DNA of 23,310 nt from a virus. Below the pieces are notes generated by a model that saw only the letters and a program-made list of their open reading frames with translations, had not been told where the DNA came from and did not search any database. Location of the stretch: positions 1 to 23,310 of IMG/VR virus record IMGVR_UViG_3300046005_000306; one strand, given 5' to 3'. Each line of letters starts with the position of its first letter. Position 1 is the first letter of the stretch. The position numbers were made by a program, and so were the translations under genes. This document shows, one piece after another, positions 19,098 through 21,115 of this stretch.

Positions 19098-19213
19098 TGC
19101 CTTGTCCAGTTCAAGTAGGCTTTACACGGAGTGCTTCCAAAACCTTTAATCTCATAAGGCCCAATGCACAGCCACATATTACCTACACGTTTAATTCTAG
19201 GTTTAATGTTCAT
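19088..19213 (-). CDS. Small phage protein, 41 residues
   Basis: ATG 19213 overlaps the end of the Cys-rich gene by 11 bases, and the frame ends at TAA 19088-19090, inside the helicase start. The product begins with a basic segment 'MNIKPRIKRVGNMWLCIGPY', continues 'GFGSTPCKAYLNW' and ends 'TRQWF'. The arrangement K-P-R-I-x-x-x-x-x-x-W-x-C ... G-x-G-x-T-P-x-x-A-Y-x-x-W is one I recognise from small phage and prophage proteins of unknown function. Retention of Trp, Gly, Thr-Pro and Ala-Tyr supports a real gene. There is no strong Shine-Dalgarno, and coupling to the upstream stop is likely. Confidence 0.72.
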   Translation of the reverse strand: MNIKPRIKRVGNMWLCIGPYEIKGFGSTPCKAYLNWTRQWF

Positions 19214-19400
19214 ATTCATGCGCGTTGCGCCAGTCTATAAATAAGGTACATTCAAGTTCTTTTATTTCTTTCTTTGCGTCCATGCGCCACATAAAGTCCT
19301 TAGTATCTATCTCGATAGTTAGATAACGAGCGCAGTCTTGTTTTTTTTCGCAGTTACTTCCAAGACAACGGGCGTTTTCATTTGGTAATGGATATTTCAT
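19203..19400 (-). CDS. Cys-rich small protein, copy 1
   Basis: The product has 65 residues with C12-x4-C17-x5-C23 ('CLGSNCEKKQDC') and a fourth Cys in 'ELECTLFID'. The spacing suggests a metal or Fe-S site (inference). It is a paralogue of the protein at 20614-20817, sharing ARCLGSNC, K-K, C-x-R-Y-L-x-I-E, D-T-K-D-F, M-D-A-x-K-E and F-I-D-x-R. The start overlaps the end of the upstream array gene by 23 bases, because that gene's frame is shifted compared with the equivalent junction at copy 2. The function is unknown. Confidence 0.72.
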   Translation of the reverse strand: MKYPLPNENARCLGSNCEKKQDCARYLTIEIDTKDFMWRMDAKKEIKELECTLFIDWRNAHEYEH

Positions 19401-19557
19401 TATTTACTCCGTGCATCTTTTCTGCAAACTTAACCCCAGCCCAGAAGCTTTCAGCGTTAATTGCATCTTCATTATCTCTAAAGCCTTGAGAGATTTCTTC
19501 ACGAGTTAAACCTTCTCGTAATTCTTCTCGTAAATCTTCTCGTAAATCTTTACTCAT
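19378..19557 (-). CDS. Array protein A (short paralogue, MSK...EK-x-HG family)
   Basis: ATG 19557 is set by GGAGGTGGGG just upstream. A longer in-frame version (to 19593) would begin inside gene B and is not preferred. The 59-residue product has three tandem Asp/Glu-Leu-Arg-Glu units, 'LTREEISQGF', and the family end 'FWAGVKFAEKMHGV'. Unlike its relatives it does not stop after HG. Relative to the remnant at 20817 the DNA lacks 7 bases after the HG codons, and the frame then reads through into the next gene before stopping. It looks like an internally deleted member of the B/C/D family. The function is unknown. Confidence 0.68.
   Translation of the reverse strand: MSKDLREDLREELREGLTREEISQGFRDNEDAINAESFWAGVKFAEKMHGVNNEISITK
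19513..19548 (-). repeat. 12-base tandem repeats at the start of gene A
   Basis: Three 12-base units, GATTTACGAGAA and close variants, encode DLRE, DLRE and ELRE. The same unit is present in two copies in the 19-codon remnant at 20844-20867. The units keep the reading frame when they expand or contract. Confidence 0.85.
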
Positions 19558-19934
19558 TCCCCACCTCCAATACCGTGTTCTTTTTCTGCCCACTTAACCC
19601 CATCTTTAAACGCTTCTCTTGTGACATTTAGCATTGATTGATTGCCAACACTTATTTGTTGCGGTGTTAAAGGCTCACGTTTTGGCGGTGCTGCGTAAAG
19701 TGGTGAGGTGTATATCTTAGTGCCAACTGGTAGTGCTTCTAATTTTTTTGCGTCCTCAAAAGATACTCTGAATGATTGAAATTGTGGTGTTTCTAACTTT
19801 GTTGCCACGGGTTGGTCTTGTTCAGGTTGGGCGAGGAGTTCTTGGATTTCTTTGTACAGTGTATGACCAATAAACCAATCCCCGTCATCATCTTCAACCA
19901 TAGCTCTTTTCAGTAACTCCCTTTCTTTACTCAT
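19554..19934 (-). CDS. Array protein B (MSKERELL...LYAAP...AEKEHGIGGGE)
   Basis: ATG 19934 follows AAGGAG at normal spacing. A TTG two codons earlier sits too close to the Shine-Dalgarno and is not preferred. The product has 126 residues. Its parts are an N-terminal helix 'MSKERELLKRAM', 'IQELLAQPEQDQPVA', a middle block 'TKIYTSPLYAAPPKREPLT' and a C-terminal helix 'NQSMLNVTREAFKDGVKWAE', then KEHGIGGGE. The middle and end match gene C, and the N-terminus and end match D. Proteins with a 'LY-x-x-P-x-x-R-x-P-L-T' segment and an E-K-x-H-G-I end are common accessory genes in phages of proteobacteria. I know no function for them. Confidence 0.75.
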   Translation of the reverse strand: MSKERELLKRAMVEDDDGDWFIGHTLYKEIQELLAQPEQDQPVATKLETPQFQSFRVSFEDAKKLEALPVGTKIYTSPLYAAPPKREPLTPQQISVGNQSMLNVTREAFKDGVKWAEKEHGIGGGE

Positions 19935-20295
19935 TATCAAAGCTCCTTATACCGTGTGCTTTTTCTGCAAACTTAACGCCTTTCCTAAACGCCAATCTAG
20001 TCACCTCTAATAATGATTGATTAGCCAGACATATAAAATACTCACTCAAAGGCTTACGTTTTTGTGGTGCGGCGTATAAAGGTCTTAAGTTAAATGGTTG
20101 CGTTGACTCGCCTTTAAATGGTTTTTCACTCCCACAATATGCTTGTGTTGACTCAAGGTCATTCTCGTACCACTCATACATCCAAGCCACAGGCTCTTGC
20201 TCAGGTTGGTCGAGGAGTTCTTTGATTTCATCAGCAAGCTCTCCTTCCCACATATAATCTAGTATTCTCTGCAACAACTCTCTTTCTTTACTCAT
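19927..20295 (-). CDS. Array protein C (paralogue of B)
   Basis: ATG 20295 is set by GGAGGTGGGG, which is also the coding end of gene D. The product has 122 residues: 'MSKERELLQRILDYMWEG', 'IKELLDQPEQEPVAWMYEWY', then 'LRPLYAAPQKRKPLSEYF' and 'ANQSLLEVTRLAFRKGVKFA' with EKAHGI. The end differs from its relatives (RSFDNE) because its DNA holds a different Shine-Dalgarno, AAGGAG, for gene B. It overlaps gene B by 8 bases. 'ESTQ' occurs twice in the middle (LESTQAY and GESTQPF). The function is unknown; the cytoplasmic, soluble character is clear from composition. Confidence 0.75.
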   Translation of the reverse strand: MSKERELLQRILDYMWEGELADEIKELLDQPEQEPVAWMYEWYENDLESTQAYCGSEKPFKGESTQPFNLRPLYAAPQKRKPLSEYFICLANQSLLEVTRLAFRKGVKFAEKAHGIRSFDNE

Positions 20296-20624
20296 TCCCC
20301 ACCTCCAATGCCGTGTGCTTTTTCTACGCTTCTTATCCATCTAATGACGTATCTGACTTGATGATCGTCCATATTTTCAACAATCCCTTCTTTATCAAGA
20401 GCATATATAACATCTTCTGTTAATGGTTTGGGTGGTGCAAACTCATTGACCCCTTGTCTAAACCCTTTCCCATACCATTCAATCTTTGTTTCTGCTAAAA
20501 GAGGCTCTTGATCTTGCTCAGGTTCGGCAAGACACTCTTTTATATCATTGAACAAACTGACCACATCTTCTTCTGTTTTCAGTTCAGTCATAAACCTTTT
20601 AAGCAACTCTCTTTCAATAGTCAT
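20292..20624 (-). CDS. Array protein D (diverged paralogue of B and C)
   Basis: ATG 20624 is chosen because AGGGA lies about 8 bases before it. The in-frame ATG 12 bases upstream directly abuts that AGGG. The product has 110 residues. The N-terminus 'MTIERELLKRFM' and 'IKECLAEPEQDQEP' match B and C. The centre differs ('FAPPKPLTEDVIYALDKEGI' replaces the LYAAP block but keeps P-x-x-P-L-T). The end 'WIRSVEKAHGIGGGE' is the family end. It overlaps the Cys-rich gene upstream by 11 bases and gene C downstream by 4 (ATGA). Confidence 0.72.
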   Translation of the reverse strand: MTIERELLKRFMTELKTEEDVVSLFNDIKECLAEPEQDQEPLLAETKIEWYGKGFRQGVNEFAPPKPLTEDVIYALDKEGIVENMDDHQVRYVIRWIRSVEKAHGIGGGE

Positions 20625-20817
20625 AAAAATTAACATCCCTAAAATCTATAAAAAAACTACAATCCATTTCTTTTAATTCTTTCATTGCATCCATGTGAAA
20701 AAAGAAATCTTTTGTATCTACCTCAATGCTTAAGTATCTGGAGCAGTTTTCTTTTTTGTCGCAGTTGCTACCTAAGCAACGTGCTGTGTCGTCAGACAGT
20801 GGGCGTGTCATTTTCAT
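20614..20817 (-). CDS. Cys-rich small protein, copy 2
   Basis: The product has 67 residues with C14-x4-C18-type spacing, 'CLGSNCDKKENCSRYLSIE', then 'DTKDFFFHMDA' and a fourth Cys in 'EMDCSFFID'. It is the closest relative of the protein at 19203-19400, roughly half identical by eye and identical at all four Cys. The start is a TAATG overlap with the 19-codon remnant, whose GGAGG serves as Shine-Dalgarno. A second ATG two codons later is possible. In both copies an array gene ending in HG lies directly upstream, so the pair was probably duplicated as a unit. Metal binding is an inference. Confidence 0.72.
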   Translation of the reverse strand: MKMTRPLSDDTARCLGSNCDKKENCSRYLSIEVDTKDFFFHMDAMKELKEMDCSFFIDFRDVNFYDY

Positions 20818-20876
20818 TATTTACCTCCAATGCCGTGCATATCTTCTCGTAAATCTTCTCGTAAATCTTTACTCAT
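20817..20876 (-). pseudogene. 19-codon remnant of the array family
   Basis: The frame from ATG 20876 (Shine-Dalgarno GGAGGTAGG, coded by the end of the HTH gene) to TAA 20817-20819 reads MSKDLREDLREDMHGIGGK. It joins the start of gene A (MSKDLREDLRE) directly to the family end (MHGIGG), with the whole centre missing. Both flanking junctions are intact, so it still carries a start, a stop and the Shine-Dalgarno for the Cys-rich gene. It is either a deletion remnant kept because it transmits translation, or a leader peptide. Whether it is translated is not known. Confidence 0.6.
20844..20867 (-). repeat. 12-base tandem repeats in the remnant
   Basis: Two units of GATTTACGAGAA encode DLRE twice, identical to the first two units in gene A at 19525-19548. 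They are good material for recombination between the two loci. Confidence 0.8.
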
Positions 20877-21115
20877 TTCCTACCTCCAATAGTAATATGA
20901 TCGCCTACTCTTGGAGGCGTTTCACCTGTCATTTTCAGCCAGTAATCCAATAAGTTAATGGCTTCCTGCCATCCTGCTGGTGGTCTTTTGGTTTCCTGTT
21001 TGACGCATGACAGGGTGCTTACTGCGGTATCGGTCTTTCTAGCTAGTTCTGCCAGGCTAACCCCTTTTCCATATAGCACCTGAATCATCAAGGCAAAGTC
21101 TATATCTCTAGCCAT
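20873..21115 (-). CDS. Small helix-turn-helix DNA-binding protein
   Basis: The product has 80 residues. ATG 21115 follows GGGAGGT and overlaps the upstream gene by 8 bases. Residues 9-45 read as an HTH of the Cro/CI or XRE sort: 'MIQVLYGKGVSLAELARKTD' then 'AVSTLSCVKQETKRPPAGWQ'. It has the usual L-A-x-x-x-x-x-x-x-S-T-L-S pattern and a following helix 'EAINLLDYWLKM'. It probably regulates transcription, and the divergent region at 22448-22563 is one candidate target (inference). The last residues, ITIGGRK, are encoded by the same junction DNA as the array proteins' ends, although the rest of the protein is unrelated to them. Confidence 0.72.
   Translation of the reverse strand: MARDIDFALMIQVLYGKGVSLAELARKTDTAVSTLSCVKQETKRPPAGWQEAINLLDYWLKMTGETPPRVGDHITIGGRK

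Follow-up and report, generated by a model that had tools for sequence, protein, structure and literature searches.

The window, the whole stretch of DNA analysed here, spans the 23,310 bases of an IMG/VR virus record. All genes and joints described below lie on its minus strand and are given in the direction of reading. The conserved left flank closes with a gene (20873..21115) for an HTH-like protein whose tail, ITIGGRK, is read from a short repeated element that we call the joint. It is followed by a mini-ORF of 19 aa, MSKDLREDLREDMHGIGGK (20817..20876), which consists only of the two ends of an array gene (MSKDLRED...MHGIGGK) and is apparently an array gene with an internal deletion; locus L041 has one too. 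Next come a Cys-rich small protein (copy 1, 20614..20817) and the array genes A1 (20292..20624, tail AHGIGGGE), A2 (19927..20295, tail AHGIRSFDNE, with no IGG), A3 (19554..19934, tail EHGIGGGE) and A4 (19378..19557, tail MHGVNNEISITK). A second Cys-rich copy (19203..19400) opens the conserved right flank, with a helicase after it. Inside the array genes lie linkers reading LAEPEQ in A1 (20512..20531), LDQPEQ in A2 (20195..20214) and LAQPEQ in A3 (19816..19835). The two Cys-rich copies (19203-19400 and 20614-20817) form a divergent pair (CLGSNC...C...Y) flanking the array, and arrays of relatives very commonly adjoin such a gene. The starts of A4 and of the mini-ORF (19523-19560 and 20842-20867) carry 12-nt tandem repeats, GATTTACGAGAA.

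Joints and junctions of the island

The joint sequence ATTGGAGGTGGGGAATGAG occurs exactly twice, at 20291-20309 (joint 3) and 19553-19571 (joint 4), and with two mismatches, as ATTGGAGGTAGGAAATGAG, at 20872-20890 (joint 1). No match was found in 100 dinucleotide shuffles (chance expectation 0). The sequence-only reading had reported these three copies with ranges one base too long, and had overlooked a fourth, ATTGGAGGTAAATAATGA (joint 2, 20814-20831), which terminates the mini-ORF. As it described, each of the three contains GGAGG, the overlap of stop and start in ATGA, and the last upstream codons (IGGGE or IGGRK). Its claim that the protein upstream of joint 1 is unrelated to the array proteins agrees with the absence of that protein among their phmmer relatives, although its assignment as an HTH protein is weak (HTH_38, E=0.043). 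Two further tight junctions lack the joint motif and take a ribosome site from the last codons of the upstream gene. At A2/A3 (19927..19953) these codons are ATAAGGAGCTTTGATAATGAGTAA, in a tail HGIRSFDNE (ATAAGGAGC); AAGGAG stands there in a different reading phase, and the genes overlap by 8 nt, ATGAGTAA. At A4/Cys-rich (19395..19413) they are CACGGAGTAAATAATG, in a tail HGVNNEISITK (CACGGAGTA), where CAC GGA GTA gives GGAG.

Positions 19401-20866 of the window form a variable accessory-gene island, with the HTH-like gene on one side and the Cys-rich/helicase block on the other. In many relatives the match to the window runs to 20866 on one side and resumes from 19401 on the other, with different sequence between. 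Different arrays are held between flanks of about 92-96% identity; in L060, for example, the flanks are 92.3 and 93.0% identical to the window, while its island is about 400 nt long, against 1465 nt in the window. From the gene preceding the HTH-like one to the helicase, 4 to 11 genes were counted in 41 walkable loci. A 37.7-kb contig (L001, L055) matches the window across the array and also encodes P22-type portal and coat proteins, a DUF2800 nuclease and a family A DNA polymerase.

The array proteins gave no hits in Pfam or NCBIfam and only marginal hits in PHROG, and those of the window matched no defence families. A tblastn search with three of them against 50,697 phage records returned zero or marginal hits. 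A scan of genome contigs for EKAHGIGG yielded scattered, mostly internal matches and no host. The AlphaFold prediction for A1 with 32 relatives was poor (pLDDT 69.6, pTM 0.35).

Conservation of the joint in relatives

Relatives were collected as some 200 non-redundant loci by protein and pattern scans of viral contigs. The joint itself served as query for part of this sample, so that conservation inside the pattern is partly built in; only four of the scans, among them one for EKAHGIGG with all codons left free, do not have this limitation. Near-duplicates were collapsed, some contigs overlap, and the comparisons count pairs, not events on a tree. The joint profile found 164 distinct joints in uncultured viral contigs and none in shuffled sequence. 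The joint is a near-identical stretch of about 24 bases, CACGGcATTGGAGGTGGGGAATGA, which nearly always comprises the end of one gene and the start of the next, and information content drops sharply beyond about -30 to +11. A start codon with an ORF of at least 25 codons was present at 155 of the 164 joints; the other nine mostly have a shorter ORF or a later start, two of them (L012, L218) are in-frame fusions, and one (L260) has no evident start. The expectation of the sequence-only reading that the junction joins different gene pairs was borne out by many such pairs. Downstream, at least 30 protein clusters were found, including proteins with Dam methyltransferase, HNH-AP2 endonuclease, ExoX-like and PAPS-reductase domains, and upstream, the array superfamily predominates, together with the HTH-like protein, a Dam-type methyltransferase and others. 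The PAPS-reductase-like gene at L236:5035-5901 (Pfam PAPS_reduct; PADLOC SspD model, E=1.6e-18) lies right behind a joint.

The conserved thing at the joint is DNA and not peptide, because the joint of one methyltransferase is switched in frame and another joint is left untranslated. The methyltransferase ends in ...IIIKAHGIGG.. in L100 and L066, whereas after a one-base shift the same joint is read as ...IIIKLTVLEVGNE, KLTVLEVGNE, in L102. The tail LEVGNE is found in L059, L240 and L102, and L085 has ..LEVNDE. In L071 the joint is kept wholly behind the upstream stop. The HTH-like gene of relatives ends in ITIGGRK, ITIGGGE, IEVCDE, IEVSDE, IEVNDE or ISVEACDD, each variant with a purine-rich match to a ribosome site in or near the tail. 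The codon-free scan gave 90 matches, 89 of them C-terminal, and 51 non-redundant ones were taken for a codon test. GGA was used at the first Gly after Ile in 32 of these 51, against 2 of 51 at the Gly of HG (Fisher 1e-10; background 0.20).

The alternative that the protein needs its tail, with EKAHGIGGGE as a functional C-terminal peptide of the array family, is quite improbable. HGI is indeed present in most array members and, with different codons, in distant phages, and the EKAHGI portion of the tail is also a feature of the protein family. A distant set of seven contigs with the tail IGGINE moreover retains IGG by GGTGGC, GGGGGG or other codons; here, in a minority, the residues outlast GGAGG, the case that the sequence-only reading had named as telling against selection on the DNA. 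On the other side, besides the two frames and the untranslated joint, the tail is carried by unrelated proteins, and it is replaced by HGIRSFDNE, HGVNNE or HGIT where other sequence makes up the ribosome site or there is no next gene. The tail is kept in relatives where a start codon follows, as had been predicted. An ORF of 30 or more codons that starts with ATG comes next in 208 of the 220 array members. Most of the remaining 12 show a start codon, ATG or GTG, in this position with a shorter ORF behind it, and L061 among them is a frame-broken copy. L040, the only clear case of an array end that no gene follows, reads HGIT and has lost the ribosome site too.

The translation signal at the joint is strong. 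GGAGG lies 6 nt before ATG in 121 of 141 in-frame joints. A ribosome-site match of at least 4 bases was found in 91% of array members with a gene behind and in 76% of control tight junctions, and one of at least 7 bases in 57 and 5%, respectively. Array tails without GG have ordinary ribosome sites (at least 4 bases, 84%; at least 5, 18%; at least 7, 9%; controls 76, 35 and 5%). The upstream gene thus holds the ribosome site and the overlapping stop/start, as at ATGA/TGATG coupling overlaps. ATGA overlaps are known to be able to couple genes by reinitiation (PMC6728339); we infer translational coupling at the joints.

Homology breakpoints at joints and linkers

Homology ends were defined as the ends of DNA matches of 85% identity over 150 nt or more. 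Within 15 nt of the joint they were 6.3-fold above the expected number. Relative to GGAGG, matches start mostly from -30 to +10 and end from 0 to +40; starts thus fall before the joint and ends after it, and therefore both kinds of match tend to include the joint. Ordinary tight junctions also gather homology ends, though per site several-fold fewer, the density at joints being several times that at 527 other tight junctions nearby. Among 296 scored joint pairs alike on at least one side, 16 were alike on both sides and 280 on one side only; for 294 control junction pairs the corresponding numbers were 161 and 133. The suggestion that the junction provides homology for swapping genes is therefore upheld in that the joint is a homology breakpoint.

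If the joints were alike merely as the ends of recent tandem copies, with no special role of their own, the end segments common to A1-A4 and the two Cys-rich copies of the window would be readily accounted for. Plain duplication is nevertheless very unlikely, given that the joint is kept between flanks unrelated on one or both sides, that at least 30 families lie downstream of it and that one-sided pairs exceed two-sided ones by 280 to 16. Two in-frame fusions (L012:2587 and L218:2914, HGIGGEPLSNEQ), in which the joint is followed by the KREPL linker of another array gene, are apparently a by-product of exchange. At L041:3770-4093 an array protein (..PLYTAPP) is chimeric with the C-terminus of a Dam methyltransferase (SAVIIIKAHGIGGGE).

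No recombinase was recognised in the window or in two examined stretches of the larger contig of the window phage; in these stretches a DUF2800 PD-(D/E)XK nuclease and PolA were seen, and no annealing protein was recognised. Folding of the joint gave no structure beyond that of shuffled sequences (z-scores 0.94, -0.13 and 0.06), and no promoter-like site was found at it above chance. A dedicated, integron-like cassette system, with a site-specific recombinase acting on the joint, would suit the discrete, gene-sized units and the near-invariant core. It is extremely unlikely in view of the unstructured joint, of the two contig stretches in which no recombinase was seen and of the intragenic linkers, which differ in sequence and are breakpoints too. 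Since Red-beta needs a minimum of about 30 bp (PMC3945230), by analogy an annealing recombinase acting on short homology would suffice for exchange at the joint.

The linkers inside array genes behave similarly. Homology starts just before ELLAQPEQ at 1.11 per site per 10 nt, against a mean of 0.18 for all ends in array ORFs, and ends of homology follow MSKERELL and, to a lesser degree, KREPL. Where the flanking sequences are unrelated, the second Leu of ELLAQPEQ is CTC in 35 of 40 (background 0.05), and in PPKREPL both CCA and GAG are used in 23 of 23. These linkers have no ribosome site, yet they are about as codon-fixed as the joint. Pairing of the linker CTCC with the ribosome site was considered and dropped, being by eye too weak and variable. 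Cutting 49 proteins at the linker blocks gave 38 N, 40 middle and 34 C types, and all segment types seen at least twice have at least two partner types (N 8/8, middle 6/6, C 7/7).

Because linkers without a ribosome site are equally codon-fixed and carry breakpoints, the identity of the joint DNA cannot be credited to translation alone. The earlier proposal of selection on the junction DNA thus holds as far as the frame-switched and untranslated copies go, while the linkers point to homogenisation, and to judge from these codons recombination seems to homogenise the joint DNA as much as translation conserves it. Homogenisation might even act alone, with the ribosome site incidental. Such a pure recombination linker would explain why ELLAQPEQ and PPKREPL gather breakpoints and fixed codons, and why ribosome sites are merely ordinary in array tails without GG. 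We consider it rather unlikely, as GGAGG and its spacing are retained in frame-switched copies, ribosome sites of at least 7 bases are far commoner at joints than at controls, and a start codon follows nearly every joint.

The joint is, in our judgement with good probability, a composite DNA element that combines ribosome site, stop/start and exchange homology for the accessory-gene island. It would supply the last codons of the upstream gene, the strong ribosome site GGAGGTG (with most often 6 bases from GGAGG to ATG) and the overlapping ATGA, so that a gene bounded by joints should be translated wherever it is inserted, by local initiation or reinitiation. As many array gene ends carry almost identical joints, these, together with the adjacent MSKERELL codons (24-50 bp), could provide the homology for inserting, deleting and exchanging whole genes, by general or phage-type annealing recombination, in which the breakpoints are observed and the enzyme is putative. 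ELLAQPEQ, strongly, and PPKREPL, more weakly, would have the same role in recombination and none in translation. As these intragenic blocks would recombine, the array proteins would therefore be mosaics of N, middle and C segments. Uniformity of the joint would come both from recombination and from the need for a ribosome site; where a junction does not have the motif, there is usually a different ribosome site in the tail, often a weaker one. A wider reading, which we put forward tentatively, is a combinatorial accessory locus, in which codon-frozen linkers let genes and segments reassort, N, middle and C modules build hypervariable early proteins, and the linkers are kept since exchange at them is safe.

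The frame-switched tails, the untranslated copies and the homology on one side only each indicate that genes are exchanged at the joint. They are also a warning that conserved tails of phage proteins are not to be read as functional peptides.

Comparison with known systems

Integron-type cassettes have a structured recombination site, which the joint lacks. The SAS of cluster K mycobacteriophages (PMC3203893) are similar in being repeated, asymmetric and mostly in one orientation, in accompanying different gene families of the non-structural half, and in carrying a ribosome site 3-7 bp from a gene start. They differ as 13-bp sequences, GGGATAGGAGCCC, which for the most part lie between genes more than 50 bp apart and half of which have 17-bp inverted repeats, whereas the joint lies inside the upstream gene with overlapping stop/start and gene gaps of about -1 to -8 nt. 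The PeSL of T4-type phages (Arbiol 2010, Comeau 2014; cited in PMC4503421 and PMC3950731) resemble the joint as intergenic repeats whose homology mediates gene-by-gene shuffling, and differ as early promoters with a stem-loop, the joint being without structure or an above-chance promoter-like site.

The Ead/Ea22 family (PMC7093339) likewise comprises early-region proteins with divergent segments and a shared short tail, K/R-G-E. The array proteins share no detectable sequence family with it, and no Pfam Ead/Ea22 hit was found among them. The significance of the K/R-G-E tail was stated as unknown (PMC7093339). We surveyed 13 lambdoid or related records, lambda (L322) and L323-L334. A gene of the Ea22 region ends in KGE or KGGE, coded AAAGGAGAG, AAGGGGGAR or AAAGGAGGTGAG, in 10 of the 13 records (lambda, P22, HK620, epsilon34, epsilon15, HK633, HK022, SE1 gp08, phiV10 and ES18 gp40). 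The next annotated start lies at -4 to +1 in most of these; in HK022 and ES18 gp40 it is unannotated in the stretch shown. EaE/hkaH-type genes end in LRKG.., coded CGCAAAGGAG, and D6 orf102, a neighbour of another kind, ends in NKGE. These codons suggest that the Ea22 tail fits a ribosome site, and some conserved C-terminal peptides of phage early proteins, including lambdoid Ea22, may really be ribosome sites. Lambda Ea22 (29847) keeps KGE, AAAGGAGAGTGAG, with no annotated gene directly behind; the tail can therefore outlive its gene.

Among known kinds, the joint comes nearest to the lambdoid boundary sequences. These are short, conserved stretches at gene borders, where homologous recombination was proposed to reassort genes (Susskind and Botstein 1978; Clark et al. 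2001, HK620; cited in PMC3029335). Like them, the joint is short conserved DNA bordering otherwise unrelated genes, and homology breakpoints of related phages lie at it, with 6-fold enrichment and a two-sided signature. It differs in sequence (the joint is unlike AAAGGAGAGTGA) and in protein families, and in that joints occur in tandem, several per island, together with codon-frozen linkers inside genes. The joints offer a large natural data set on which the long-standing view that phage modules evolve through boundary sequences can be tested.
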